Assembly: GCA_024401435.1 (NCBI GenBank)
Contig: JAKSLB010000009.1
Span: 1 to 64,000 of the forward strand
DNA: 64,000 nt
Reading direction: 5' to 3'
Source of the DNA: Paludibacteraceae bacterium
Lineage (GTDB): Bacteria > Bacteroidota > Bacteroidia > Bacteroidales > Paludibacteraceae
In this document: piece by piece, positions 4,725 through 63,347 of the stretch
How positions within the stretch are numbered: the first letter of the stretch is position 1
How the letters are laid out: each line of letters opens with the position of its first letter
Translations under genes and position numbers: made by a program
Notes under the pieces: generated by a model
Database searches by the model: none
Told to the model about the DNA's origin: nothing
Seen by the model: the letters and a program-made list of their open reading frames with translations, nothing else

Positions 4725-7010
4725 TTATTTTATTATTACTTTTCCAATTGTCTGTTTGGCTTTGATAACATACAAGCCTGATGTAGGAACCGTAATCGTT
4801 TCCCCTTCATCCATTAATTGTCCTGTGACTGAATAGACTTGAATATTACCTGATGTAGAGTAAATGGTTTTATCTACTATATAGTATGATGGTTCAGATG
4901 TGACATCGAAAATATCAGCAGGATTTAGTGTGGAAATCTTTACATATTTATAACTGGCAATGCTGTTAACTTTATCCCATGCAATGGCACCTTCGCTTTC
5001 GTTCTTTGTGTTAACTAATATGTATGGATTTGTATAAGAAAGTTTGGGTTCTGTATTTGAAATTGCTACAGTGGATGCAGAAAGTTCTACTTCACAATTG
5101 TTGATGTCTAATGATGTCTCTGCAATAAGTGCTGCGGCAGATTCTCCTGTGACATTAATGTTGATATTTGATTTGATGAGATTAGCTGTAGTAGTCCAGA
5201 TTCCGTAATCTTTTTGAACTTGGTCACCCGTTTCATTATAAGAACTTCCTAAAAGATTGATGTCTTTTGCATAAATACCGAATGCTTGTGCTCCTCCTGC
5301 AGTAAGAAATTGGATTTTACAACTGTCGATTTTTAATGTTGAGTCAGAGCGTATTCCCATCGAGAGCGTATTCGCATTGATAGTTTGATTGATGCTGGTG
5401 TTGCTGATTTCTGCAACAGCTGCTTGAATACCTGTGGCATTGATTATGTCAGAAAACGATGATGAGATGGAATCATGACTCATGTTTAACGACTCTGTAT
5501 AAAACCCCAGTCCAGTAGTTCCTGTGATTTTGTCAAAATTGTAGATGTTCTTAGAAGAAGATATTTTTTTTGCAGAGTTGATTATGACAGTACCTTTGGC
5601 ATTGATGTTTGTGTGAAATTCAACATTGTCAAATGTGTTAGTTGTGGTGTTGAGTCCATACATGTCATTTCCAAATTCGCCATTAATTTCTAAAGAACCT
5701 TTTTGAAAGATGGCGTCATTGCCATAGATTCCGCAGCCCTTGAATCCATTGAGGGAAAGGATTATTTGGTTGTTAATCGATTCTAGAGAATCACAACGAA
5801 TACCAATTACATCAATGATGGAACTTTCTTGAATTCTATTCGTGATTTGTTCATTAATAGTATCGTTGTGTAGTTGTATTTTGTTGGCATCTAATCCATA
5901 AGAGATTTCGTTAGAATTTATCTCAGATTGAATGGTACTGAAATCTGCCAGAATGTTTAGAGATTTCAAATTGGTACAAGATGTTCCGATAAGTTTGCTG
6001 CTTAAAGTTGAATTTTTGCAGATTAAATTGTTACTACGTATAGCGTAGATATCTTTAGCGTTTATGATATTGTTAATTTCACTGCTGTTTAGTACGGATA
6101 TCTCTGGTGCATAAATACCAGTTGCTCCATATGAGGCTTGACAGTTTATTGTTATGCGTGTTTTGTCTAATTTGATTTTATCGCCCGATATTCCATAACA
6201 GATATTTCCTTTTGAAAATATGTTGATTGTAGAATTCTCAGCAGAAAGTTTGCCTGAATTAAAGAATATGTTACGAATATATTCGGTTGACGTGTCTTTG
6301 TTGTAAATTTCACCTTCAATGGTACTGTTTGTTATTGAGGTTGAATCCGCTTGTATGGCATAACTTGTTGTTGAGGTCGAATCTGTTTGGATGGAAATAC
6401 TAGATTCATCTATCTTTAAAATGCTACAATTGAAACCAATATTAGTTTTTTCACTATATAAATACATAGCAATGTTGGCCTTGTGGGTAGATATCTTTTC
6501 TGTTTGGAAACTAATTGCTTGACTTTTACCAAATATGTTTTCTATGATAAATGCATTCTCGACAGATAATTGAGAAACGTAGAAGGCAAAGCTCTTGTCG
6601 TTATCCATTTCAATTTCCAATGTGTCACCAACGATGGTGATTGCTTTTTCTGAATGAAAAGCAGAAGATATGTTTCCTTTGTCAGTGATTTTGTTTTTAC
6701 CAATTAATTGGATTTTTAAATCATTGGTTTTGCTGATAATCATAGTACCTATACTATCATGACCTGTTAGTGTGGCATTGTCAAGTGTTAATGTATTGGT
6801 TTTTGCATCATAATAGACACGACCTTCAATGCCTGGACCTTTGATTGTGTCTGCATTTTGGGAAGTGACGGCATAACCTGCAACATAAATATTATAGGAA
6901 GTGACATCTTCTTTGCCATCTTCTGCAAATAAGGCGAAAGAAATACTCAGAAAAGAGATGAGAAATAATGAAGATAATAATCTTCTCAAATTAGTGTGTT
7001 GTAGTATCAT
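4725..7010 (-). CDS. secreted predicted beta-helix protein with probable T9SS sorting domain
   Basis: A 761-residue exported protein of unknown function. The signal peptide is about residues 1-29 (LLSSLFLISFLSISFALFA). Residues about 38-80 hold a motif seen in Bacteroidetes surface proteins (YNIYVAGYAVTS ... YYDAKTNTLTLDNATL). The middle, about 80-650, is a long run of imperfect short repeats with alternating hydrophobic residues and many Asn/Ser (for example IYAPEISVLNSSEINNII, IYAKDINLLGSSYNE), as expected for a parallel beta-helix. The last about 70 residues (VYSVTGQLMDEGETITVPTSGLYVIKA ... GKVIIK) look like a T9SS type A sorting domain. The gene starts 2 nt after the fmt stop codon, so it probably shares the nadK-fmt transcript. 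No enzymatic motif is seen. Confidence 0.8.
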   Translation of the reverse strand: MILQHTNLRRLLSSLFLISFLSISFALFAEDGKEDVTSYNIYVAGYAVTSQNADTIKGPGIEGRVYYDAKTNTLTLDNATLTGHDSIGTMIISKTNDLKIQLIGKNKITDKGNISSAFHSEKAITIVGDTLEIEMDNDKSFAFYVSQLSVENAFIIENIFGKSQAISFQTEKISTHKANIAMYLYSEKTNIGFNCSILKIDESSISIQTDSTSTTSYAIQADSTSITNSTIEGEIYNKDTSTEYIRNIFFNSGKLSAENSTINIFSKGNICYGISGDKIKLDKTRITINCQASYGATGIYAPEISVLNSSEINNIINAKDIYAIRSNNLICKNSTLSSKLIGTSCTNLKSLNILADFSTIQSEINSNEISYGLDANKIQLHNDTINEQITNRIQESSIIDVIGIRCDSLESINNQIILSLNGFKGCGIYGNDAIFQKGSLEINGEFGNDMYGLNTTTNTFDNVEFHTNINAKGTVIINSAKKISSSKNIYNFDKITGTTGLGFYTESLNMSHDSISSSFSDIINATGIQAAVAEISNTSINQTINANTLSMGIRSDSTLKIDSCKIQFLTAGGAQAFGIYAKDINLLGSSYNETGDQVQKDYGIWTTTANLIKSNININVTGESAAALIAETSLDINNCEVELSASTVAISNTEPKLSYTNPYILVNTKNESEGAIAWDKVNSIASYKYVKISTLNPADIFDVTSEPSYYIVDKTIYSTSGNIQVYSVTGQLMDEGETITVPTSGLYVIKAKQTIGKVIIK

Positions 7011-25199: not shown

Positions 25200-26246
25200 A
25201 TGATTCGCATTATAGTTAATTTGATAGTATTCGTGCTGTTGATTATAATATTCTTTTTTATATATAGTACAATAACTGAATATTCTCCAGAAAAGGTGAC
25301 TCCGTTAGAAGCGGATTCAAGTAAATGTGATGTTCTCTCTTCTGATTCAACTTTCAGATTTTTGATTTGGAACATTGGTTATGCAGGTTTAAATCAAGAA
25401 ATGGATTTCTTTTATGATGGCGGTCATATGGTTCGCCCATCTCAATCTAAAGTCGTTGAAAATCTTACTTCAATACAATCATTTCTGAAAGAAAATGCTT
25501 CTGTTGATTTTTGTATGTTGCAAGAGGTTGATGTAAATTCTAAACGGTCTTATTATATAAATCAAAGAAACTCATTACATGAGACTTTGCAATATAAGTA
25601 CAGCTATTTTGGAATGAATTATAATGTTGGTTATGTTCCTATGCCCATTACTGAACCGATGGGACATGTTGAGGCTGGTTTGCTATCATTGACAAATCTA
25701 AAACCATATGAATGTAATCGTATGTCATATCCATTTAATTTTAAATGGCCTTTACGATTGTTCTTGTTGGATAGATGTTTTATGCCGATGCGTTATAAGG
25801 TTTCGAATGGGAAGGACTTGATTATTATTAACACGCATAATTCGGCTTTTGATGATCAGGGAAAACTTAGAATAGCAGAATTGAACTATTTGAAAGATTA
25901 TCTTATTTCTGAATATGAGCATGGAAATTATGTGGTTGTAGGGGGTGATTTTAATCAGTCTCCAGTAGGGGTTAAACACTATTTCGAAGGTGAGATTTTT
26001 GATGATAAGGAATTTATATCAGTATCTGATTCTTTATTGCCACAAGGTTGGCAATATGTCTTTGACAACACATCACCGTCTAATCGACGTACTGATACTA
26101 TATATGTAAAGGGGCAGACTAGGGTAGCGTTGTTAGATTTCTTTATTGTATCTCCAAATGTATGTGTAGATAGTGTGAAATGTCATAATTTGCATTTTGT
26201 ACATTCCGATCACAATCCTGTTGAAATGACAATTCGCCTAAAGTGA
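25200..26246 (+). CDS. membrane-anchored endonuclease/exonuclease/phosphatase family protein
   Basis: A 348-residue phosphodiesterase-fold protein. Residues about 4-25 form one transmembrane helix or uncleaved signal anchor (IIVNLIVFVLLIIIFFFIY), so the catalytic domain should face the periplasm. EEP superfamily motifs are WNIGYAG (metal-binding Asn), CMLQEVD (Glu), NTHNSAFD (His), VVGGDFNQSP (Asp, Asn) and VHSDHNPVEM (catalytic Asp-His near the end). The fold covers DNases, sphingomyelinases and inositol phosphatases. The exported position makes a phosphodiester or phosphoinositide substrate as likely as DNA. Confidence 0.87.
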   Translation: MIRIIVNLIVFVLLIIIFFFIYSTITEYSPEKVTPLEADSSKCDVLSSDSTFRFLIWNIGYAGLNQEMDFFYDGGHMVRPSQSKVVENLTSIQSFLKENASVDFCMLQEVDVNSKRSYYINQRNSLHETLQYKYSYFGMNYNVGYVPMPITEPMGHVEAGLLSLTNLKPYECNRMSYPFNFKWPLRLFLLDRCFMPMRYKVSNGKDLIIINTHNSAFDDQGKLRIAELNYLKDYLISEYEHGNYVVVGGDFNQSPVGVKHYFEGEIFDDKEFISVSDSLLPQGWQYVFDNTSPSNRRTDTIYVKGQTRVALLDFFIVSPNVCVDSVKCHNLHFVHSDHNPVEMTIRLK

Positions 26247-26268
26247 ATTGACGTGTATTGTTGTAAAA

Positions 26269-26517
26269 ATGCAAGTAAAGTCAAATGTATATGTAGTGAC
26301 TGATTTGGATGACTTGTCTGATATAAACGAGGAATATAACCAATACAAAGGAACTCATATGGAGAGGGAGTGCAAGGACGTTGCCATTGAAAAATGTGGA
26401 TTCTTCCTTCCTGAATTTTCGTACTTTGACTTCATCAATGATGCTCTGGACGATGCTTGTAAGACGATTCTTGTGAAGACGGCAATGGAGAACATTGAAA
26501 AAAATCATCGAATGTGA
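26269..26517 (+). CDS. small hypothetical protein
   Basis: An 82-residue acidic ORF of unknown function from ATG 26269 (MQVKSNVYVVTDLDDLSD). No signal peptide, membrane segment or recognisable domain is seen. It starts 22 nt after the EEP-family gene, and its stop codon lies in a large palindrome. The earlier TTG at 26248 is unlikely. Codon use in the second half (CTGGACGATGCTTGTAAGACG) looks more GC-rich than the neighbours, so it may be foreign or a remnant. It could be non-coding. Confidence 0.4.
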   Translation: MQVKSNVYVVTDLDDLSDINEEYNQYKGTHMERECKDVAIEKCGFFLPEFSYFDFINDALDDACKTILVKTAMENIEKNHRM

Positions 26518-26562
26518 TATGAACCCCGAAAGTTAGATAAAAAACTTTTGGGGTTCATATCA
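26515..26562. repeat. long palindrome resembling joined IS3-type ends
   Basis: TGATATGAACCCCGAAAGTT / AACTTTTGGGGTTCATATCA form a 20-21-bp stem with one G-T pair and an 8-nt loop. The arm GAACCCCGAAAGTTAGA resembles terminal repeats of IS3-family elements from memory. It has no poly-T tail but could still stop transcription from both sides. Confidence 0.6.
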
Positions 26563-26638
26563 GTGACACACTGCATTATGGAACTTTTTGTGTTGTCTGA
26601 TGTTAGTTAGTGAACATAAAAACGTTGTTGGCATATAA

Positions 26639-26675
26639 AAAAGGAGGAGAACAATTGCTGTTTTCCTCCTTTTCT
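26639..26675. terminator. bidirectional terminator after the large LRR gene
   Basis: AAAAGGAGGAGAACA / TGTTTTCCTCCTTTT, a 15-bp stem with one G-T pair and a 5-nt loop, 20 bp past the minus-strand stop. Confidence 0.88.
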
Positions 26676-26694
26676 GTTTAATAAACTATTCTTG

Positions 26695-29600
26695 TTATAA
26701 AAGAATCTTAAATGATTTATTGCCAATTTTTATTATATAAATACCACTTTTGACTTTTATTTGTTCGTGTTTGGAATGAGGTTTGACAATGCAGATTATT
26801 CTGCCCAGATAATCTGATACGATTATATCGTTTCTTGCATTGTCAACGTGGATTATTCCATCATATCCCCATACGTTAACATTCATTGCATTGTTTTCTG
26901 TTAATGATGTTGGTTCTAATACAGGAATTTCTTCTTGTTCTACTAGAATCTTACCACATACAGAACAATGAGACCCTTCAGTCAAACCTGTTGTGGTTTG
27001 AGTCGCAGCTACTTCAGGATCAATGACACTGATATGACCGTGAGATTCAATGTTTACAGTTATGGTGTCATGGAATTTTTGTGTGTTGAAAATAGCTGTT
27101 GCGATGTAGGTGATTGAACCGTCTTCAGTACATGTCGCAGCGATTGTGTCGGTTGTGATTGTGGCTGCAAGGCTTTCTACATGATTTGTATCGTTAGCGC
27201 AAATAAATGAGGCGGTTGCTTTGCTCGAGTCGTTAGCAAAAACGAATGTTGGTTCGCCAAATTTGTGACCTGTGGCTGGAATTGTATCAGTTTCCACCTC
27301 GCCACAAGCGCAAGCACGGGTACGCAAGCCTGATGCTGTGCAGGTTGCAACCAGTGTTGTATCCCATTCACCGAACGAGTGAGCCTCGAATGTTGCCACA
27401 AGAGCAGTGTCGCTCACAACAAGTATTGTATCGTTGGTTTTTGTGCTTCCGTTGTTCCACTCTACAAAGTGATAGCCTTCGTTGGCTTGGCAACTGATTT
27501 CTAAAGTCTCGCCATTTGCGTATTCGCCATTGTTGGCTGATACTTTTCCAAATTTCTCATCGTTTGACGACACAGTAACTGTGTATTTTGGTATTGTAAA
27601 CAAGATTTTGAATTCTTCGGGGGCGAAATTTGAATTTCCTAAATCATAGATGTATGAAATTTCTGTTTCATCGGCAGAGTTTGGAACAATTATAGTCTTT
27701 TCGGTATTATTCAAAATTGTTCCACCTGTAATAGATGTAATGTTTTCTTGCAAAACATTTGGCAATTCGATGCCTTTAACAGAAACCTCCCCAAAGTCGA
27801 TTTGGTTGTTGTGACAATACAATTCATGCAAATTAGTATTCTTCGACAAATCGAGCGAAGTCAATTGGTTATTGTGACAATTTAAATATTCCAATTCTGT
27901 ATTCTTCGATAAATTGAGTGAACTCAATTGGTTGTTGTGACAATATATATATGTCAAATGTTCACTTGCAGGCAAAACAAGCGAGGTCAATTGGTTATCT
28001 TCGCAATCCAAATATTCCAATTCCGTATTCTTCGACAAATCGAGTGAAGTTAATCGCATGTTGCCACAAGTCAAATTAGTTATTTTTGTGAAGTATTCAA
28101 TTCCTTTGAGCGATGCTATTGGTTCGCTCAATATTGTAATTGTTTTAACACGTTGAGTTTCATACGGACTTAATTTGCCGTCTTTTACTATATCATAATA
28201 TGATGAAACATAATCACGGAAAATTGGGTCAGGGAAGTTTGTTTCGTCAATTGCAATGCTCAACGATTGGTCGTATGGCAACACAACTGTAACCCACATT
28301 TTTTCACTAAGAGCGTAGTTTGCATCATATTCGTAAGAAAAACAGATTAAATCGGTATTCTTTATAATGAATTTTGTGTCTTCGGGCTCGGTGCATGATT
28401 CAAAGGAAATACCCTCGTCGCAAGCAATTATATTAAAAACATCAACATTTGGCAAAATAATCGCTTTTTTATCCTCGTCAGCCCATGTTGCTTCGACTAT
28501 ATTGTCATAACAACTGAAAGAATTGATCGCTGTATTCTTCGACAAATCGAGCGAAGTAAATTGGTTGTTGTCACAATACAATTCAAGCAAATTTGTATTC
28601 TTCGACAAATCGAGCGAACTCAATTGATTGCTTGAACAATTTATATATGTCAAATATTCACTTGCAGGTAAAACAAGCGAGGTCAATTGGTTATCAGAGC
28701 AATCCAAATATTCCAAAACCGTATTATTCGACATATTGAGTGATGTCAATTGGTTGTTGTAACAAATCAAAAGTTCCAAATTTGTATTTTCCGACAAATC
28801 GAGCGAAGTCAATTGGTTTTCAGAACAGTTTAATTTTACCAAATAGGTATTATTCGACAAATCGAGTTCTGTCAATTGATTGCCGTGACAGGACAGTTGT
28901 TGTAATGATGTAAAGAGCTCAATACCTTTGAGCGAGGTTATGTTTTTGTAGGGACAATCTATTTGGGTGCACAAACTAATTTCGTATGGAGATAACTTTC
29001 CATTTTTATTTTCATCAAAAAATTTAACATATTGGCGGAAGTTTTCATCAGGGAAATTGATTTCGTCAATTGCAATATTTTTCGATTCATCAATTGGCAA
29101 TACAATTGTAACAATCAATTTGTCGGAAACCTTTTCGTTGTTTACGTCATACGTATAACTAAAGTAACTCAACGAATTATCGGTAATAGTAAATTGAGTT
29201 CCTCCTGTTGAACCTTCGGCAATATCAACACCTTCGGATAATAACTCAACTTTCGAGAAATCGACATTTGACAATACAAACATGCCTTCGGCAGAAATTT
29301 CGCTTAATTCAAAAGTGTTTTCCTGGCCATCAAAATTCCATAGATAACTTTTATTTGACAAGTCGATTGCTGTTAATTGATTATTGCGACATACAACATT
29401 CTCCAAGTTTATATTTACCGACAAATCGAGTTCTGTAAGAAGGTTCTTGCTACAATTTAAACTTAAAAGATTTGTGTTGTTCGACAAATCGAGTTCGGCA
29501 AGATTGTTATCAGAGCAATCCAAATATTCCAAATTTGTAAAATATTCGATTCCTGTCAATGAGGAAATGTCACTTTCATGACAATATACTTCTGTTATAT

Positions 29601-32343
29601 GTTCAATTTCGCTTGCCTCTAAATTTTTACTTTCGTTTTGGTCGAAATTTTCTAATGCAAAATTGCGGAAATTTTCGTCAGGGAAATGCTCTTCGTCGAT
29701 AGCCACTACTATTGGGTCAATAATACTAACTAATAAATTACAAAAAAGGCTGTAATTATCATTTCCATTAGTGACTATATAAGAAAAAGACATAGATTCT
29801 ATGCCATATCTTTCTGGAATAAAGCGAGTACCACCAGTTTCTTCGTCTTTTTCGATTGTATAGTCATAAAGCGAAGATGGATCTACATTCTCGAATATTA
29901 CATTCGGCATTACAAAGCCTGTTTTTTCAATTTCGCCTATATCGTATGTATTATCCAAACAATTGAAATTATACAAATTGGTATTTTGCGATAAGTCGAA
30001 CGTTGTAAAATGGTTAGATGAGCACTCCAAATATACCAATGCCGTATTATAAGACAAATCGAGTTCTGTTAAATCGTTTCCTGAACAATCCAAATATCCC
30101 AAAGCCGTATTGTTCGACAAATCGAGCGAAGTCAATTGATTGTCGTTACAAATCAAATGTTCTAAAGCCGTATTGCGCGACAAATCGAGTGAAGTCAATT
30201 GGTTATAAGAGCAATCCAATAATCTCAAATTTGTAAAATGTTCGATTCCTGTCAATGAGGTAATGTCCCTTTGTTCACAATATACATCTGTTATATGTTC
30301 AATTTCGCTTGCCTCTAAATTTTTACTTTCGTTTTGGTCGAAATTTTCTAATGCAAAATTGCGGAAATTTTCGTCAGGGAAATGCTCTTCGTCGATAGCC
30401 ACTACTATTGGGTCAATAATACTAACTAATAAATTACAAAAAAGGCTGTAATTATCATTTCCATTAGTGACTATATAAGAAAAAGACATAGATTCTATGC
30501 CATATCTTTCTGGAATAAAGCGAGTACCACCAGTTTCTTCGTCTTTTTCGATTGTATAGTCATAAAGCGAAGATGGATCTACATTCTCGAATATTACATT
30601 CGGCATTACAAAGCCTGTTTTTTCAATTTCGCCTATATCGTATGTATTATCCAAACAATTGAAATTATACAAATTGGTATTTTGCGATAAGTCGAACGTT
30701 GTAAAATGGTTAGATGAGCAATCCAAATATTCCAAAACCGTATTATTCGACAAATCGAGTGAGGTTAATTGATTGTCGGTACACTCCAAATATTCCAATT
30801 CTGTATTCTTCAACAAATCAAGAGTTGTCAATTGATTGTCGTTACAAATCAAATATTCTAAAGCCGTATTGTTCTCCAGATTGAGTGATGTCAATTGGTT
30901 GCTTCCACAATTAATAACTGTCAAATGCTCACTTGCAGGCAAATCGAGCGAGGTCAATTTATTGTCAAAACAAGACAATTCTTCCAAATTAGTATTGTTC
31001 GACAAATCGAGTGAGGTCAATTGATTGTCGGTACAAAACAAATATTCCAAAGCCGTATTGCTCGACAAATCGAGTGAAGTCAATTGGTTATAAGAGCAAT
31101 CCAATAATCTCAAATTTTTAAAATATTCGATTCCTGTCAATGAGGCAATGTCATTTTCTTGACAATCTACATCTATTCCTATTTCAATTTCGCTTGCCTC
31201 TAATTTGTTATTTTCGTTATCGTCGAAAATTTCCGATACATATTGGCGGAATTTTTCGTCAGGGAAATGCTCTTCGTCGATAGCCACTATTACAGGGTTG
31301 TTAACTATTACTCCAATTGTGAATTGTGCGTATTTCGATTCACTACATTTATAATTATATTGTAATTCGGAAACCTTATAATTTTCTGGAATAAAGCGAG
31401 TACCGCCAGTTGCTTCGTCTTTTTCGATTGTACAATCATAGAGTATAGTTTCATCTACATTCTCGAATATTACATTCGGCATTACAAAACCTGTTTTTTC
31501 AACCTTGCCTACATTGTAATAATTATCTAAACAGTCAAAATAATTCAAATTGTTATTATTCGACAAGTCGAGAGCAGTCAATTGGTTATCAGAGCAATCC
31601 AAATATTCCAAAGCCGTATTATTCGACAAATCGAGCGATTTCAAATCGTTTTCGTAACACATCAAAGTTTTCAATTTTGTATTATTCGACAAATCGAGTT
31701 CCGAAAGTCTATTACTACTACAATCCAAATATTCCAAATCGTTGTTGCATTTTAACACATTAATTTTATTGTTACTAATAAACAATTCCTTCACTTTGGT
31801 ATTTGGGGTTAAATCAAGTACTGATATAGAATTCTCTATACAAGTCAAATTTTCCAACTTAATGAAGTATTCTATTCCATTCAACCAAGTTATCTCCATG
31901 TTACTACAATCAATTTCGGTTACAGCCAAAATTTCGGAAGCACTTAGATAACCATCTTGATCAGTATCAAAATACGTAGTCACATAAAGACCGAATTTTC
32001 CGTCAGGGAATGTGGTTTCATCAATGGCAAGTTTGTCAACGCCATTCCAATAAACCAAAGTTTCATTCTCTTGAATGTTGTAATAAGCCAAAGTTTTAGA
32101 ATCGTCGAGTTTTGTACCTTTGTAATACAAATCGACCTTATTGGCACTGCTGGCACCCATGGTTTCATAATACAAGAGTTTTAAATCTTCAATCGTAGCG
32201 CTGTTAGATGTAACATCTATTTGTGTTGAAGTTGCACTTGTTAGCGACTTAATATTAAATATAAAGCCACTTTTTCCGGCATACGAATCAATGTTCAATG
32301 CCCCAATTAGCAGAATGCTTAAAAATAATTTGAGATGCTTCAT
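26695..32343 (-). CDS. large modular LRR surface protein with N-terminal ubiquitin-like domain
   Basis: An 1882-residue exported protein. The signal peptide is about 1-22 (LFLSILLIGALNIDSYA). Residues 26-99 form a ubiquitin-like domain: FIFNIKSLTSA, TIEDLKLLYYETMG, then LYYKGTKLDDSKTLAYYNIQ-ENETL, close to the C-terminal half of ubiquitin. Six modules follow. Each opens with IDE..FPD..F and an EF-hand-like loop (best at 126-137, DTDQDGYLSASE), followed by 21-residue LRRs (LEYLDCSDNQLTSLDLSNNT) and a beta-rich spacer (GFVMPNVIFENVD ... GGTRFIPE). Residues about 1580-1660 are an InlB-type B repeat, then Cys-pair segments (RACACGEVE, GSHCSVCGK). The last 70 residues look like a T9SS type A domain. 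Function is probably adhesion, by inference. Confidence 0.88.
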   Translation of the reverse strand: MKHLKLFLSILLIGALNIDSYAGKSGFIFNIKSLTSATSTQIDVTSNSATIEDLKLLYYETMGASSANKVDLYYKGTKLDDSKTLAYYNIQENETLVYWNGVDKLAIDETTFPDGKFGLYVTTYFDTDQDGYLSASEILAVTEIDCSNMEITWLNGIEYFIKLENLTCIENSISVLDLTPNTKVKELFISNNKINVLKCNNDLEYLDCSSNRLSELDLSNNTKLKTLMCYENDLKSLDLSNNTALEYLDCSDNQLTALDLSNNNNLNYFDCLDNYYNVGKVEKTGFVMPNVIFENVDETILYDCTIEKDEATGGTRFIPENYKVSELQYNYKCSESKYAQFTIGVIVNNPVIVAIDEEHFPDEKFRQYVSEIFDDNENNKLEASEIEIGIDVDCQENDIASLTGIEYFKNLRLLDCSYNQLTSLDLSSNTALEYLFCTDNQLTSLDLSNNTNLEELSCFDNKLTSLDLPASEHLTVINCGSNQLTSLNLENNTALEYLICNDNQLTTLDLLKNTELEYLECTDNQLTSLDLSNNTVLEYLDCSSNHFTTFDLSQNTNLYNFNCLDNTYDIGEIEKTGFVMPNVIFENVDPSSLYDYTIEKDEETGGTRFIPERYGIESMSFSYIVTNGNDNYSLFCNLLVSIIDPIVVAIDEEHFPDENFRNFALENFDQNESKNLEASEIEHITDVYCEQRDITSLTGIEHFTNLRLLDCSYNQLTSLDLSRNTALEHLICNDNQLTSLDLSNNTALGYLDCSGNDLTELDLSYNTALVYLECSSNHFTTFDLSQNTNLYNFNCLDNTYDIGEIEKTGFVMPNVIFENVDPSSLYDYTIEKDEETGGTRFIPERYGIESMSFSYIVTNGNDNYSLFCNLLVSIIDPIVVAIDEEHFPDENFRNFALENFDQNESKNLEASEIEHITEVYCHESDISSLTGIEYFTNLEYLDCSDNNLAELDLSNNTNLLSLNCSKNLLTELDLSVNINLENVVCRNNQLTAIDLSNKSYLWNFDGQENTFELSEISAEGMFVLSNVDFSKVELLSEGVDIAEGSTGGTQFTITDNSLSYFSYTYDVNNEKVSDKLIVTIVLPIDESKNIAIDEINFPDENFRQYVKFFDENKNGKLSPYEISLCTQIDCPYKNITSLKGIELFTSLQQLSCHGNQLTELDLSNNTYLVKLNCSENQLTSLDLSENTNLELLICYNNQLTSLNMSNNTVLEYLDCSDNQLTSLVLPASEYLTYINCSSNQLSSLDLSKNTNLLELYCDNNQFTSLDLSKNTAINSFSCYDNIVEATWADEDKKAIILPNVDVFNIIACDEGISFESCTEPEDTKFIIKNTDLICFSYEYDANYALSEKMWVTVVLPYDQSLSIAIDETNFPDPIFRDYVSSYYDIVKDGKLSPYETQRVKTITILSEPIASLKGIEYFTKITNLTCGNMRLTSLDLSKNTELEYLDCEDNQLTSLVLPASEHLTYIYCHNNQLSSLNLSKNTELEYLNCHNNQLTSLDLSKNTNLHELYCHNNQIDFGEVSVKGIELPNVLQENITSITGGTILNNTEKTIIVPNSADETEISYIYDLGNSNFAPEEFKILFTIPKYTVTVSSNDEKFGKVSANNGEYANGETLEISCQANEGYHFVEWNNGSTKTNDTILVVSDTALVATFEAHSFGEWDTTLVATCTASGLRTRACACGEVETDTIPATGHKFGEPTFVFANDSSKATASFICANDTNHVESLAATITTDTIAATCTEDGSITYIATAIFNTQKFHDTITVNIESHGHISVIDPEVAATQTTTGLTEGSHCSVCGKILVEQEEIPVLEPTSLTENNAMNVNVWGYDGIIHVDNARNDIIVSDYLGRIICIVKPHSKHEQIKVKSGIYIIKIGNKSFKILL
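29591..30024 (-). repeat. 434-bp perfect direct repeat, copy 1 (within LRR gene)
   Basis: Identical at every base to 30287-30720, an offset of 696 bp (232 codons, one module). Similarity continues with mismatches beyond both ends. Identity at synonymous sites points to recent duplication or gene conversion. Confidence 0.93.
30287..30720 (-). repeat. 434-bp perfect direct repeat, copy 2 (within LRR gene)
   Basis: The partner of 29591-30024. Recombination between the copies would delete or add one 232-residue module in frame. Confidence 0.93.
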
Positions 32344-32516
32344 ATGAAAGGATAAATTTATGGTGTAATTAATTTTATTAGATAAAGCAACAGTGAAAGT
32401 TGATTTTATTTACAGAATATATGTTAATTAAATTATTATACAAGATACTTTATTTTAGTATGTAAAGATACAAGCTTTTTATATGTTTTGTATTGTTCTA
32501 TGATGTTGTTTAGATG

Positions 32517-32527
32517 AAAATCTTATT
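32517..32527. repeat. target-site duplication, left copy
   Basis: AAAATCTTATT, identical to 33025-33035 on the other side of the element. Confidence 0.85.
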
Positions 32528-33024
32528 ATTGGTGTCCGCTAAACGTGAAAATAAATTTATAACACGTTGAAAGATAGTAAGTACGGATATAAAAACTTGA
32601 GACAACCCCCTTGCTCGAAACACGACTACCACGATCTCTTTTATTTTCTCCATGAAGTATTCCAAGTCTTTCTTGAAATGTTATGGAATCCGTGTCCGTA
32701 TATGGAACAGTCCACGCCCTGAAAGGGCAGTCCTTCCACAGCCTAGGGCAACACCCTAGGTGAAAATATGATGGTGGTAATTCCGCCCTGAAGGGGCAAA
32801 AGCGCTTTGCCGTATAGTTGTTTTGCCCTTTCAGGACGTATGATGGCGGCCATTCATTTCCCTTGGGCGTTGCCCAAGGCTAAGAACTGTTGGGCTTTCA
32901 GCCCGTGGTACATTTATAATAAAATCGACAGTGGATTCTTTTCAAAAAAGCGAATCCGCAATATTGTGTTTACTGGTATTCTGGAATGTATAGTTGACGA
33001 TATTAATGTTTAGCGGACACCAAT
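32528..33024. mobile_element. 497-bp non-autonomous (MITE-like) element
   Basis: The ends are perfect 17-bp inverted repeats, ATTGGTGTCCGCTAAAC (32528-32544) and its complement (33008-33024). The flanks are an 11-bp direct repeat, AAAATCTTATT, at 32517-32527 and 33025-33035, the mark of a recent insertion. An 11-bp duplication fits IS4-family enzymes, which is inference. No transposase is encoded. The interior (32710-32920) is more GC-rich and packed with hairpins: GCCCT-GAA-AGGGC, CCTAGGG-CAACA-CCCTAGG and CCTTGGGC-GTT-GCCCAAGG. A larger inverted pair is CGCCCTGAAGGGGCAAAA / TTTTGCCCTTTCAGGACG. It lies 184 bp upstream of the LRR gene start. Confidence 0.85.
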
Positions 33025-33035
33025 AAAATCTTATT
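33025..33035. repeat. target-site duplication, right copy
   Basis: AAAATCTTATT, directly after the right inverted repeat. Confidence 0.85.
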
Positions 33036-33089
33036 TGCTCTTTATAAGAAGTTGTTTTGTTTTTTATAAAAGAGAATTTTGGTTAAAAA

Positions 33090-33121
33090 AAAGGAGAAAA
33101 TCCGATAAGATTTTCTCCTTT
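33090..33121. terminator. terminator after the flotillin-like gene
   Basis: AAAGGAGAAAATC / GATTTTCTCCTTT, a 13-bp perfect stem, 28 bp past the minus-strand stop. Confidence 0.88.
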
Positions 33122-33148
33122 CAATATTATACAATATTATGTATCGTT

Positions 33149-34702
33149 TTATTTAACGCCTACTACAACGTCATTGTCTCCATCAATATTTATGTTTCTA
33201 TTGACTTTAGCTTCGATTGTGTTAGATTTCATAATATCAGCCATGTCTACGCCAGTGACAGATTTAACGACATCGAAAGTTTGTTTCATCACCGTTGGCA
33301 CATTTTGAGAGATACCAGAAACTTCGTTTCCTGAAGTGCCGTAGATAGTAACGTCTTTGATAGTTGACATTGGTTTTGCAATGTTTTCTGCAACCACTGG
33401 CAAAACTTTCTCGTTCATCTTTGTTAACATATCGATAACGGCAACCTGACCGAATTTAGCGTAAGCTTCAGCCAATTTCTCTTTTGCTTCAGCTTCTGCG
33501 TTTCCTTTAGCAAGGATACCTGCTGCTTCAGCTTCTAGGTTGGCTTGAATGGCAGTTGCTTGAGCCTTACCTTTAGCCTCAATACCGGCAGCTTCTTGAA
33601 GTGCGGCATATTTGTCAGCGTCAGCTTTCGCTTTAACAGCTAATGCTTTTTGTTCAGCCATATAAGCTTCAGCTTCAGCTTCGCGTTTCTTTTGCTCCAA
33701 AGCAGCTTGTGCATTAATCTCTGTTTGGTATTTATTCGCATCAGAGATGACTTGTTTCTCATATTTGTCAGCATCAGCTTTTGCATTTACTTGAGCACGC
33801 AATTCATTCTCTTTGATCTTAATTCTCTCTTCAGACAAAACTTGTTCACGTTTTGTTTGTTCGATTTGAGCATCAACCGTTTTGATGTTGATAGTCTTCA
33901 ACTGCTCTTGTTTCTCAATTTCGTAAGCGGCGTCTGCAACAGCTCGTTTAGTATCAGAAACCTGTTTCAAATCAGCTTGCTTGATGGCTAATTCGTTGTT
34001 ACGTTCAGCAATCTCTGTTTCCGTCTTAACACGAACATCATTAGCAGCTTTTGCGGCTTCTTGATTAGCAATGGCGATATCTCTTTCTGCGTTAGCTTTA
34101 GTGATAGCAGCATTCTTTTTGATGGCGTATGTGTTATCGGCACCTAAGTCGCGAATCAATCCATTTTCATCTGTTACATTTTGAATGTTGCAAGAAATGA
34201 TTTCAAGACCTAATTTACGCATGTCAGGGTCAGCTTTCTTTTGAATTTCATCAGAGAAAGCATCACGATTGGTGTTAATGGCTTCCAATGTGAGTGCACC
34301 AATAACCTCACGCATATTACCTTCCAAAGAGTCTTGAACTTGCTTGGCCATGTCTATTTCGCTCATGTTTAAGAAGTTCTTGGCAGCCAATCTTGTACCT
34401 GACTCATCAGGAATGACACGAATCTTACAAACAGCGTCCACGTTGACATTGATAAAGTCATGAGTAGGAACTGATTTGTTTGTTTTGACATCAACTGTTA
34501 CTTGACCTAAGAATACTTTATCTAAACGTTCTAAAAAAGGTATTTTAAAACCTCCGGAACCGATGAGCACTCTTGGAGACTTACGAACACCAGACAAAAT
34601 AAAGGCTGTTGATGGAGGTGCTTTTACATAGATTGTGATAGCAAGAATAATAAAAACTATTACTAAAACAATAGCACCCGTAATTAAATAAGTTGTTTGC
34701 AT
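33149..34702 (-). CDS. flotillin-like SPFH-domain membrane protein
   Basis: A 517-residue scaffold protein of membrane microdomains. One N-terminal transmembrane segment (about 6-27, LITGAIVLVIVFIILAITIYV) is followed by an SPFH/band 7 domain (about 30-200; TAFILSGVRKSPRVLIGSGGF ... LEGNMREVIGALTLEAI). A long Ala/Glu/Lys-rich coiled coil (about 205-430, with EAEAYMAEQKALAVKAKADADKY type heptads) follows, then a short flotillin-type C-terminus. Relatives organise membrane proteins and affect envelope stress tolerance. In many genomes an NfeD-like gene is adjacent, but none is here. Neighbours are the transposable element and an outer-membrane beta-barrel gene. Confidence 0.92.
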   Translation of the reverse strand: MQTTYLITGAIVLVIVFIILAITIYVKAPPSTAFILSGVRKSPRVLIGSGGFKIPFLERLDKVFLGQVTVDVKTNKSVPTHDFINVNVDAVCKIRVIPDESGTRLAAKNFLNMSEIDMAKQVQDSLEGNMREVIGALTLEAINTNRDAFSDEIQKKADPDMRKLGLEIISCNIQNVTDENGLIRDLGADNTYAIKKNAAITKANAERDIAIANQEAAKAANDVRVKTETEIAERNNELAIKQADLKQVSDTKRAVADAAYEIEKQEQLKTINIKTVDAQIEQTKREQVLSEERIKIKENELRAQVNAKADADKYEKQVISDANKYQTEINAQAALEQKKREAEAEAYMAEQKALAVKAKADADKYAALQEAAGIEAKGKAQATAIQANLEAEAAGILAKGNAEAEAKEKLAEAYAKFGQVAVIDMLTKMNEKVLPVVAENIAKPMSTIKDVTIYGTSGNEVSGISQNVPTVMKQTFDVVKSVTGVDMADIMKSNTIEAKVNRNINIDGDNDVVVGVK

Positions 34703-62438: not shown

Positions 62439-63347
62439 TTAATTTTTGTGTCTTGTCTTTGGAATCCTAAAAGATAGAAATATTTCATGCGTGTTGCTTG
62501 GTAATGTGTTGTTACTTCCTAGTCCACATTCATAGACATATCCAAATCTGAATATTTGATATTCAAAGCCTAACATAATCGATAAATAGGATGGGTTACA
62601 TTTGTTGACAAGATCTGGTCTCCATGAAAATCCTCCCCAAAACAATCTGTGATAAAAAACTAAAAATCCTAAATCGGCTAAATGAACTTTGTTTCGATTC
62701 ATGTATCCTAAATCAATCATTAAGTCCCAATCTGTATTGATGTTTTGTGTATGAATGGCATATCCATAAAAATGACGATCGGAAGAATAGGAGGTGGATT
62801 GATTGTTTTGAATGTGTGTACACGAAATACCAAATGTCCAATTCATAGAGTTTAATTCAAATCCTAAATTGAAATCGGGTGTTACTTCTTTCTCTTTGTC
62901 AGAAGATAAATTTAACTCTTTTCGTTCTCCTTCAAATTCTAAGGTGTTCATTGTAGGATCATATACTCCAACAAACAATCCTGCTGATATACCCATGGAA
63001 AGAATCCATTTGGGATTTAAATCAATTTGATAAGAATATTCTGCTTTAATTTCTGTCGTGCTGTGTCCTATGCCTAAGGCATCGTATGAGAGTGAAAAAC
63101 CAATGCCTGACTGTGCTTTGGGGAAATAATTGGTGGCATTCAGCAAAATGGTATGTGGCGCATTGTCAACTCCTAACCATTGTAATCTGCCGAGTAAAAA
63201 CAGATCGATGTCTCCTGTGTTTCCAATTCCAGCTGGATTAATGTTGCCCCTCGAAAATGTTTGTTGTGTGAAAAGAAAGTCTTGCTGTGCTGTCATGGTT
63301 TGATGACAACATATGGTGACTAATATGAGAAAAAGGATCTTTTTCAT
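62439..63347 (-). CDS. PorP/SprF-family T9SS outer-membrane protein
   Basis: A 302-residue outer-membrane beta-barrel protein of the PorP/SprF family. The signal peptide is MKKILFLILVTICCHQTMTA. It is followed by QQDFLFTQQTFSRGNINPAGIG, the family's N-terminal pattern (Q...F.Q.......NPA..G). Barrel strands such as GIGFSLSYDALGIG, WILSMGISAGLFVGVYDP, WTFGISCTHIQNNQ and FRFGYVYECGLG follow. SprF of Flavobacterium is needed to secrete its partner SprB, and type B sorting domains generally rely on such partners. The OmpA stop overlaps this ATG by 4 bp (ATGA), and the giant adhesin gene starts 158 bp downstream. The natural inference is a dedicated partner for that adhesin. Confidence 0.9.
   Translation of the reverse strand: MKKILFLILVTICCHQTMTAQQDFLFTQQTFSRGNINPAGIGNTGDIDLFLLGRLQWLGVDNAPHTILLNATNYFPKAQSGIGFSLSYDALGIGHSTTEIKAEYSYQIDLNPKWILSMGISAGLFVGVYDPTMNTLEFEGERKELNLSSDKEKEVTPDFNLGFELNSMNWTFGISCTHIQNNQSTSYSSDRHFYGYAIHTQNINTDWDLMIDLGYMNRNKVHLADLGFLVFYHRLFWGGFSWRPDLVNKCNPSYLSIMLGFEYQIFRFGYVYECGLGSNNTLPSNTHEIFLSFRIPKTRHKN

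Follow-up and report, generated by a model that had tools for sequence, protein, structure and literature searches.

A predicted ubiquitin fold at the head of a putative surface leucine-rich repeat protein in a Paludibacteraceae bacterium

Ubiquitin is taught as an intracellular tag of eukaryotes. Why, then, should a ubiquitin-like domain (UBL) stand directly behind a predicted signal peptide at the start of a large bacterial leucine-rich repeat (LRR) protein? The question is raised by an open reading frame (ORF) of 1882 residues in 64,000 nucleotides of a Paludibacteraceae genome (GCA_024401435.1, contig JAKSLB010000009.1, positions 1 to 64,000), a stretch referred to here as the window. A first-pass annotation made from the letters of the window had noticed the ubiquitin pattern and proposed contact with host ubiquitin-pathway partners. 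Our analysis suggests instead that the UBL is a binding head that cannot be conjugated, displayed outside the cell ahead of the LRRs and meeting a putative ligand rather than serving as a ubiquitin signal, a reading to which we give roughly even chances.

The domain and its surface

The protein begins with MKHLKLFLSILLIGALNIDSYA, predicted to be a signal peptide, and continues as GKSGFIFNIKSLTSATSTQIDV..., the UBL starting a few residues past the predicted cleavage point. Signal peptides were called throughout by a simple rule of our own (a hydrophobic stretch with small residues at −3 and −1), with no trained predictor behind it. Together with the domain order from Pfam, this agrees with the earlier description of an LRR surface-type protein whose UBL directly follows the signal peptide. 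The 86-residue piece after the signal peptide matches the ubiquitin profile PF00240 with an expect value (E) of 3.7e-9 and 36.7 bits (cut-off 25.4), and the whole protein matches it with E 2.9e-7 and 30.6 bits. The local alignment score against human ubiquitin is 80, with 24 identities over 63 aligned positions, and in 2000 shuffles (mean 23.8, standard deviation 4.1, maximum 48) that score was never reached, so the ubiquitin pattern first noticed by eye is borne out. The ungapped stretch pointed to in the first-pass annotation does contain 11 identities, over 24 positions rather than 26, and the domain it placed at 32038..32268 is real, though it ends near residue 99 (window 32047) rather than at residue 102.

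Searching PDB sequences with phmmer gave 318 distinct matches at E up to 10, and each of the 60 matches listed is a ubiquitin, a fusion containing ubiquitin or a design based on it. AlphaFold2 predicts a beta-grasp with its elements in the ubiquitin order, and Foldseek and VIA-align match the model to ubiquitin. Identity to human ubiquitin is low, about 34% over ubiquitin positions 1–70, and on that figure alone the likeness could be put down to chance. Given the profile E-value, the shuffles and a single-sequence structure prediction that also puts ubiquitin first, we consider chance resemblance barely credible and rejected it.

The predicted fold is kept more faithfully than the surface. When ubiquitin's residues are sorted into those we take to be core, structural polar and I44-patch classes, 13 of 14 core positions are hydrophobic and 4/4 structural polar residues are kept, compared with 2/8 of the I44 patch. 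Core residues, K27, D52, T55 and Y59 are shared with eukaryotic ubiquitin (PF00240), as are L8 and G47 of the patch, whereas R42D, I44Y, K48T, Q49K, H68V and V70W are changed, the alignment around H68–V70 being uncertain by one residue. K63E adds to this, leaving neither K48 nor K63. The absence of a C-terminal diglycine, already remarked on in the first-pass annotation, is plain from the sequence, the domain continuing as ...VYWNGVDKLAID, and the UBL piece holds no cysteine. The UBL also differs from eukaryotic ubiquitin in heading a predicted secreted fusion. As a protein modifier it therefore lacks the diglycine, K48, K63 and the I44 patch, and it sits in a genome (93% complete) with no E2 (PF00179) above the cut-off, the best match reaching 14.6 against 27 bits. 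Nine divergent bacterial UBLs, the window's included, follow the same pattern: the core is hydrophobic at 98% of positions and the four structural polar residues are kept at 92%, as opposed to 19% for the I44 patch.

Relatives across bacteria

At E 0.001, PF00240 matches 8 of 358 genomes of the family, 4 of 295 in a sample of the order (two above the cut-off) and 6 of 395 in a sample of the phylum, this genome being included each time. One of the order matches (G164, locus L009) falls within a chemotaxis-type protein, covers 37 profile positions and scores below the cut-off, and was treated as chance. In all seven family relatives the UBL lies at or near the ORF N-terminus. In six of them (L024–L028, L030) the ORF opens with a stretch resembling a signal peptide, after which the UBL follows; L029 formally satisfies the rule, but its stretch is only 13 residues long and its first UBL strand is absent. 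The UBL shares an ORF with BspA-type LRRs in five of the seven (L024, L025, L026, L027, L029), while L028 has an InlB-type repeat below the cut-off (21.8 against 23.6 bits) and L030 a beta-helix. A further protein with a UBL, InlB-type repeats and LRRs is found in a Synergistaceae metagenome-assembled genome (MAG) from goat reticulum (L038), whose signal peptide plus UBL shows 35% identity to that of the window protein across 92 residues. The UBL-LRR fusion, which the first-pass annotation had proposed looking for elsewhere, thus recurs in five of the seven family relatives and in L038. All six place the UBL first and the LRRs after it, and four (L024, L025, L026, L038) carry InlB B-type repeats. 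They differ from the window protein in that their UBLs score higher against the ubiquitin profile (51.9–104.5 bits). The LRRs are LRR_EndoS/LRR_4 in L038 and BspA-type LRR_5 in the five family members, which in this respect differ from the EF-hand/LRR_4 units of the window protein. Two other proteins (L036 and L037, in G026 and G263) have divergent ubiquitin-like segments inside large repeat proteins rather than at the N-terminus; against the cut-off of 25.4 bits, that of G026 scores 28.3 in the genome search and 22.6 as a whole protein, and that of G263 scores 24.3.

The genome itself encodes a second ubiquitin (G000:C128:22312-22518, equal to L023:5049-5591, minus strand; 91.9 bits), which likewise stands immediately behind a predicted signal peptide. 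It is near-canonical, 83% identical to human ubiquitin over positions 1–70, lacks the diglycine and has another, short passenger in an ORF of 180 residues. A separate, out-of-frame ORF after it (L023:4403-5029), searched as its own piece, has a tail of type IX secretion system (T9SS) type at 20.0 against 23 bits. The two signal peptides are similar, with ALNxxSYA in both. We do not claim that the window UBL derives from this second ubiquitin, their alignment score being 70, as against 80 with human ubiquitin and 93 with L038.

A profile of seven bacterial UBLs was then run over a collection of 84,980 species, each represented by a single genome, giving 557 matching stretches, 466 of which encode a relative. 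We examined the best 80 of these 466 by similarity to canonical-type ubiquitins, two of which (L089 and L104) come from one MAG. In 71 of the 80 a predicted signal peptide ends right before ubiquitin Met1, and 63 of those 71 have at least 50 residues after the ubiquitin; the nine for which the rule failed (L050, L062, L068, L074, L091, L100, L107, L111, L113) are all labelled MAG. All 18 records without a MAG label are of the signal-peptide type. The 71 span 15 named phyla and one unassigned, including one Methanothrix MAG that may be a binning error, and ten have labels taken as rumen (RUG, RGIG, R. albus). Their passengers, counted over the first 25 of 51 Pfam families, include the autotransporter beta-domain (24), outer-membrane barrels (4) and SLH, Glug, List_Bact repeat and IPTL-CTERM (3 each), followed by pairs and singletons such as fn3, SdrD_B, Ig-type parts and a sulfatase-modifying-factor domain. 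With its predicted signal peptide, UBL and longer passenger, the window protein has the same order, and it appears to be a member of a little-described bacterial set, spread over many phyla, in which ubiquitin comes first and is likely displayed outside the cell.

Members of the 71 agree with human ubiquitin at 89% of I44-patch residues; K48 is kept in 65 of them and K63 in 68, and the diglycine is present in only 4. This conservation is partly a selection effect because the 80 loci were chosen by similarity to canonical-type ubiquitins, and the contrast with the divergent UBLs is to that extent built in. For 15 pairs of related loci we computed the ratio of non-synonymous to synonymous substitution rates (dN/dS) of the UBL; it is 0.02–0.16 in 11, the other four being saturated, and the UBL of these pairs is under purifying selection. 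Two adjoining small ubiquitins of 96 and 97 residues (L034:4893-5183 and 5524-5817, plus strand, G962), each preceded by a signal-peptide-like stretch, are similar in size to BfUbb, described below. Dyella sp. OK004 (L060:5001 onward) has a predicted signal peptide and a stand-alone ubiquitin with its LRLRGG end kept, and a MAG labelled Nitrospinota (L068) has four ubiquitin repeats without a signal peptide and may be a eukaryotic contig.

Secretion of ubiquitin by a bacterium is already known from BfUbb of Bacteroides fragilis (PDB 8hm1, 8hm2). As described in PMC3352274 and PMC5705921, it is a free, near-canonical protein of 76 residues with a C-terminal cysteine, and its homologues also end in cysteine. 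It has 63% identity to the human protein and is able to disturb ubiquitination in vitro (PMC3352274), and it kills other B. fragilis strains in an intraspecies antagonism (PMC5705921). It shares with the window UBL a predicted bacterial signal peptide directly before ubiquitin; the window UBL differs in its lower identity to human ubiquitin, its lack of cysteine and its place on an 1882-residue LRR protein. The precedent that the first-pass annotation saw in BfUbb holds, but it is not an isolated one, a signal peptide followed by ubiquitin being found in the same genome, in the family and in many phyla. The activity reported for it is not confined to interference with host ubiquitin and extends to the killing of strains (PMC5705921). 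In searches of the open-licence PMC literature, the matches listed hold no account of signal-peptide-ubiquitin-passenger fusions or of ubiquitin heading bacterial surface proteins.

Architecture and genomic setting

Coordinates of the protein's parts and of the variable interval are given in the table. Residues 1-160, used as a query against 5.8 billion proteins, returned 29 proteins, with PF00240 listed for the window protein only. The other 28 are EF-hand/LRR proteins of other bacteria that have the same kind of EF-hand/LRR units behind other N-termini, none with PF00240. Internalin-like LRR proteins are a further known comparison (NF033187, 507 bits against a cut-off of 1700).

Features of the UBL-LRR protein and its locus (window coordinates)
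Feature	Position	Strand	Basis
ORF, 1882 residues, ATG start; signal peptide, UBL, EF-hand/LRR units, InlB B-type repeat, C-terminal DUF6383-like tail	26695..32343	-	ORF call, Pfam, NCBIfam
Predicted signal peptide, residues 1-22 (MKHLKLFLSILLIGALNIDSYA)	32278..32343	-	simple rule
UBL, residues 26-99	32047..32268	-	PF00240 above cut-off; AlphaFold2 ubiquitin fold (predicted); Foldseek and VIA-align matches to ubiquitin
EF-hand-like motif, residues 125-140, within first EF-hand/LRR unit	31924..31971	-	PF13405, 28.3 vs 25 bits
EF-hand/LRR units, starting at residues 108, 356, 651, 883, 1093, 1366; 19 LRR_4 stretches	27796..32022	-	Pfam
InlB B-type repeat, residues 1590-1655	27379..27576	-	PF18998, 35.3 vs 23.6 bits
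C-terminal tail, residues 1818-1881	26701..26892	-	DUF6383-like (just below cut-off); T9SS sorting-domain-like (well below)
Interval with the UBL-LRR gene here, without it in three relatives	26247..33148	.	G616 (L123), G609 (L138), G617 (L139)

The window also contains parts of a T9SS, namely a PorP/SprF protein (62439-63347) and an 8030-residue protein with a T9SS type B sorting domain (38188-62280, minus strand), and since both are present a cell-surface location of the UBL-LRR protein is predicted to be likely. The C-terminal part of the 8030-residue protein is about 48–52% identical in G616, G609 and G617, and the MutS2 beside it 79–86%.

In G616 the order runs from the giant T9SS protein through MutS2, an outer-membrane protein and flotillin directly to the orthologue of window 25200-26246. 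The flotillin gene is absent as well in G609 and G617, and G617 holds another small gene at that place. With the UBL-LRR gene absent at the same site in three relatives, either this lineage acquired it or the others lost it. At E 0.001, PF00240 has no match in any of the other 15 genomes of the genus. The adjoining flotillin-type gene (33149-34702, minus strand) is also patchy: of 16 genomes of the genus, only this one and two others have a full match at E 1e-50, and identity in those two is 93–94%. Eukaryotic contamination of the contig was rejected, since the contig is 101 kb long, the genes around the UBL-LRR gene are bacterial and stand in an order shared by relatives, and the G+C fraction of the gene (0.348) is close to that of the window (0.351).

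What the exported domain may do

A path to such a protein can be proposed. A bacterial signal-peptide-ubiquitin module would originally have been acquired from a eukaryote and later fused onto a common bacterial EF-hand/LRR surface-protein type. The ubiquitin fold may have been retained as a stable scaffold as the surface diverged toward a new ligand, which might be another cell nearby, a glycan or a protein of the host, and the exported head, stabilised by the ubiquitin core, would face outward before the LRR stalk.

The strongest rival holds the UBL to be inert, either a cap that helps the N-terminus fold or a relic, the product of a chance fusion in which only stability matters and the LRRs do the binding. 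Only the fold residues are kept in the window UBL, and passengers as varied as those of the related proteins are expected of a mere carrier module. Canonical-type members, however, combine a conserved I44 patch (partly a selection effect) with low dN/dS, so that ubiquitin probably does more in them than cap a protein; that UBLs have been joined repeatedly to LRRs and to autotransporters further suggests a benefit of display. We rate an inert cap or relic as rather unlikely, though to be taken seriously. It is less probable still that the UBL is a BfUbb-like antibacterial factor against rival strains, fixed to or released from the large surface protein. The strain killing reported in PMC5705921 concerns a secreted ubiquitin of a Bacteroidales species, and PF00240 in one genome and none of its 15 congeners would fit strain competition, but a cysteine-free UBL on a protein of this size is unlike the free BfUbb, and no immunity-like neighbour was noticed, though without a systematic search.

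Mimicry of host or protozoal ubiquitin, to bind or block ubiquitin-pathway proteins, is the function that the first-pass annotation had in mind. The predicted fold is that of ubiquitin and would suit a mimic, but the idea is weakened because six of the eight I44-patch residues, K48 among them, and K63 are changed, I44Y and V70W included. The diglycine is missing too, and no route into a eukaryotic cell was noticed, without a dedicated search for one. Mimicry through the classical patch is unlikely on these residues, and mimicry in any form seems to us a distant prospect. An intracellular bacterial conjugation system has the ubiquitin fold alone in its favour; it was rejected because the UBL follows a predicted signal peptide and lacks the diglycine, and because no E2 scores above the cut-off in the genome (93% complete), and we regard it as close to refuted.

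Several observations weigh against a displayed binding head. The tail has no T9SS sorting domain above the TIGR04183 cut-off (13.2 against 23 bits) and no DUF6383 match above that of PF19910 (23.5 against 23.7 bits), and for many of the passengers in the wider set the families listed include no known surface anchor. Residues 23-102 compared with 5.8 billion proteins found, among 86 candidates, only the protein itself and no close homologue, in a search that depends on common 5-residue words and similar total length and that distant relatives may escape. The tree of bacterial UBLs (74 columns) has no fork at 95% support and a very long window branch (9.12), and purifying selection was measured on canonical-type UBLs only, the window's excluded. 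Retention of the fold alone would also be seen in a structural cap or in a relic undergoing decay.

For the set as a whole, we lean slightly towards ubiquitin being a widespread surface-display module in bacteria of many phyla. Signal peptidase would free its Met1, and the domain would stand outermost on autotransporters, adhesins, LRR proteins and proteins with an S-layer or CTERM anchor; some lineages, the window's among them, would have re-surfaced it into a new recognition head with the ubiquitin fold and little of its signalling face. The tag of eukaryotic cells here opens bacterial proteins that are predicted to be exported (71 of the best 80 of 466), its conjugation end mostly lost and its recognition surface largely kept in canonical-type members. 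The window protein would be the far end of that path, with the same predicted fold and a new surface. The set is large, under purifying selection where this is measurable, and testable, and named strains, Ruminococcus albus 8 or Dyella for instance, would allow the function of extracellular ubiquitin to be tested in bacteria.

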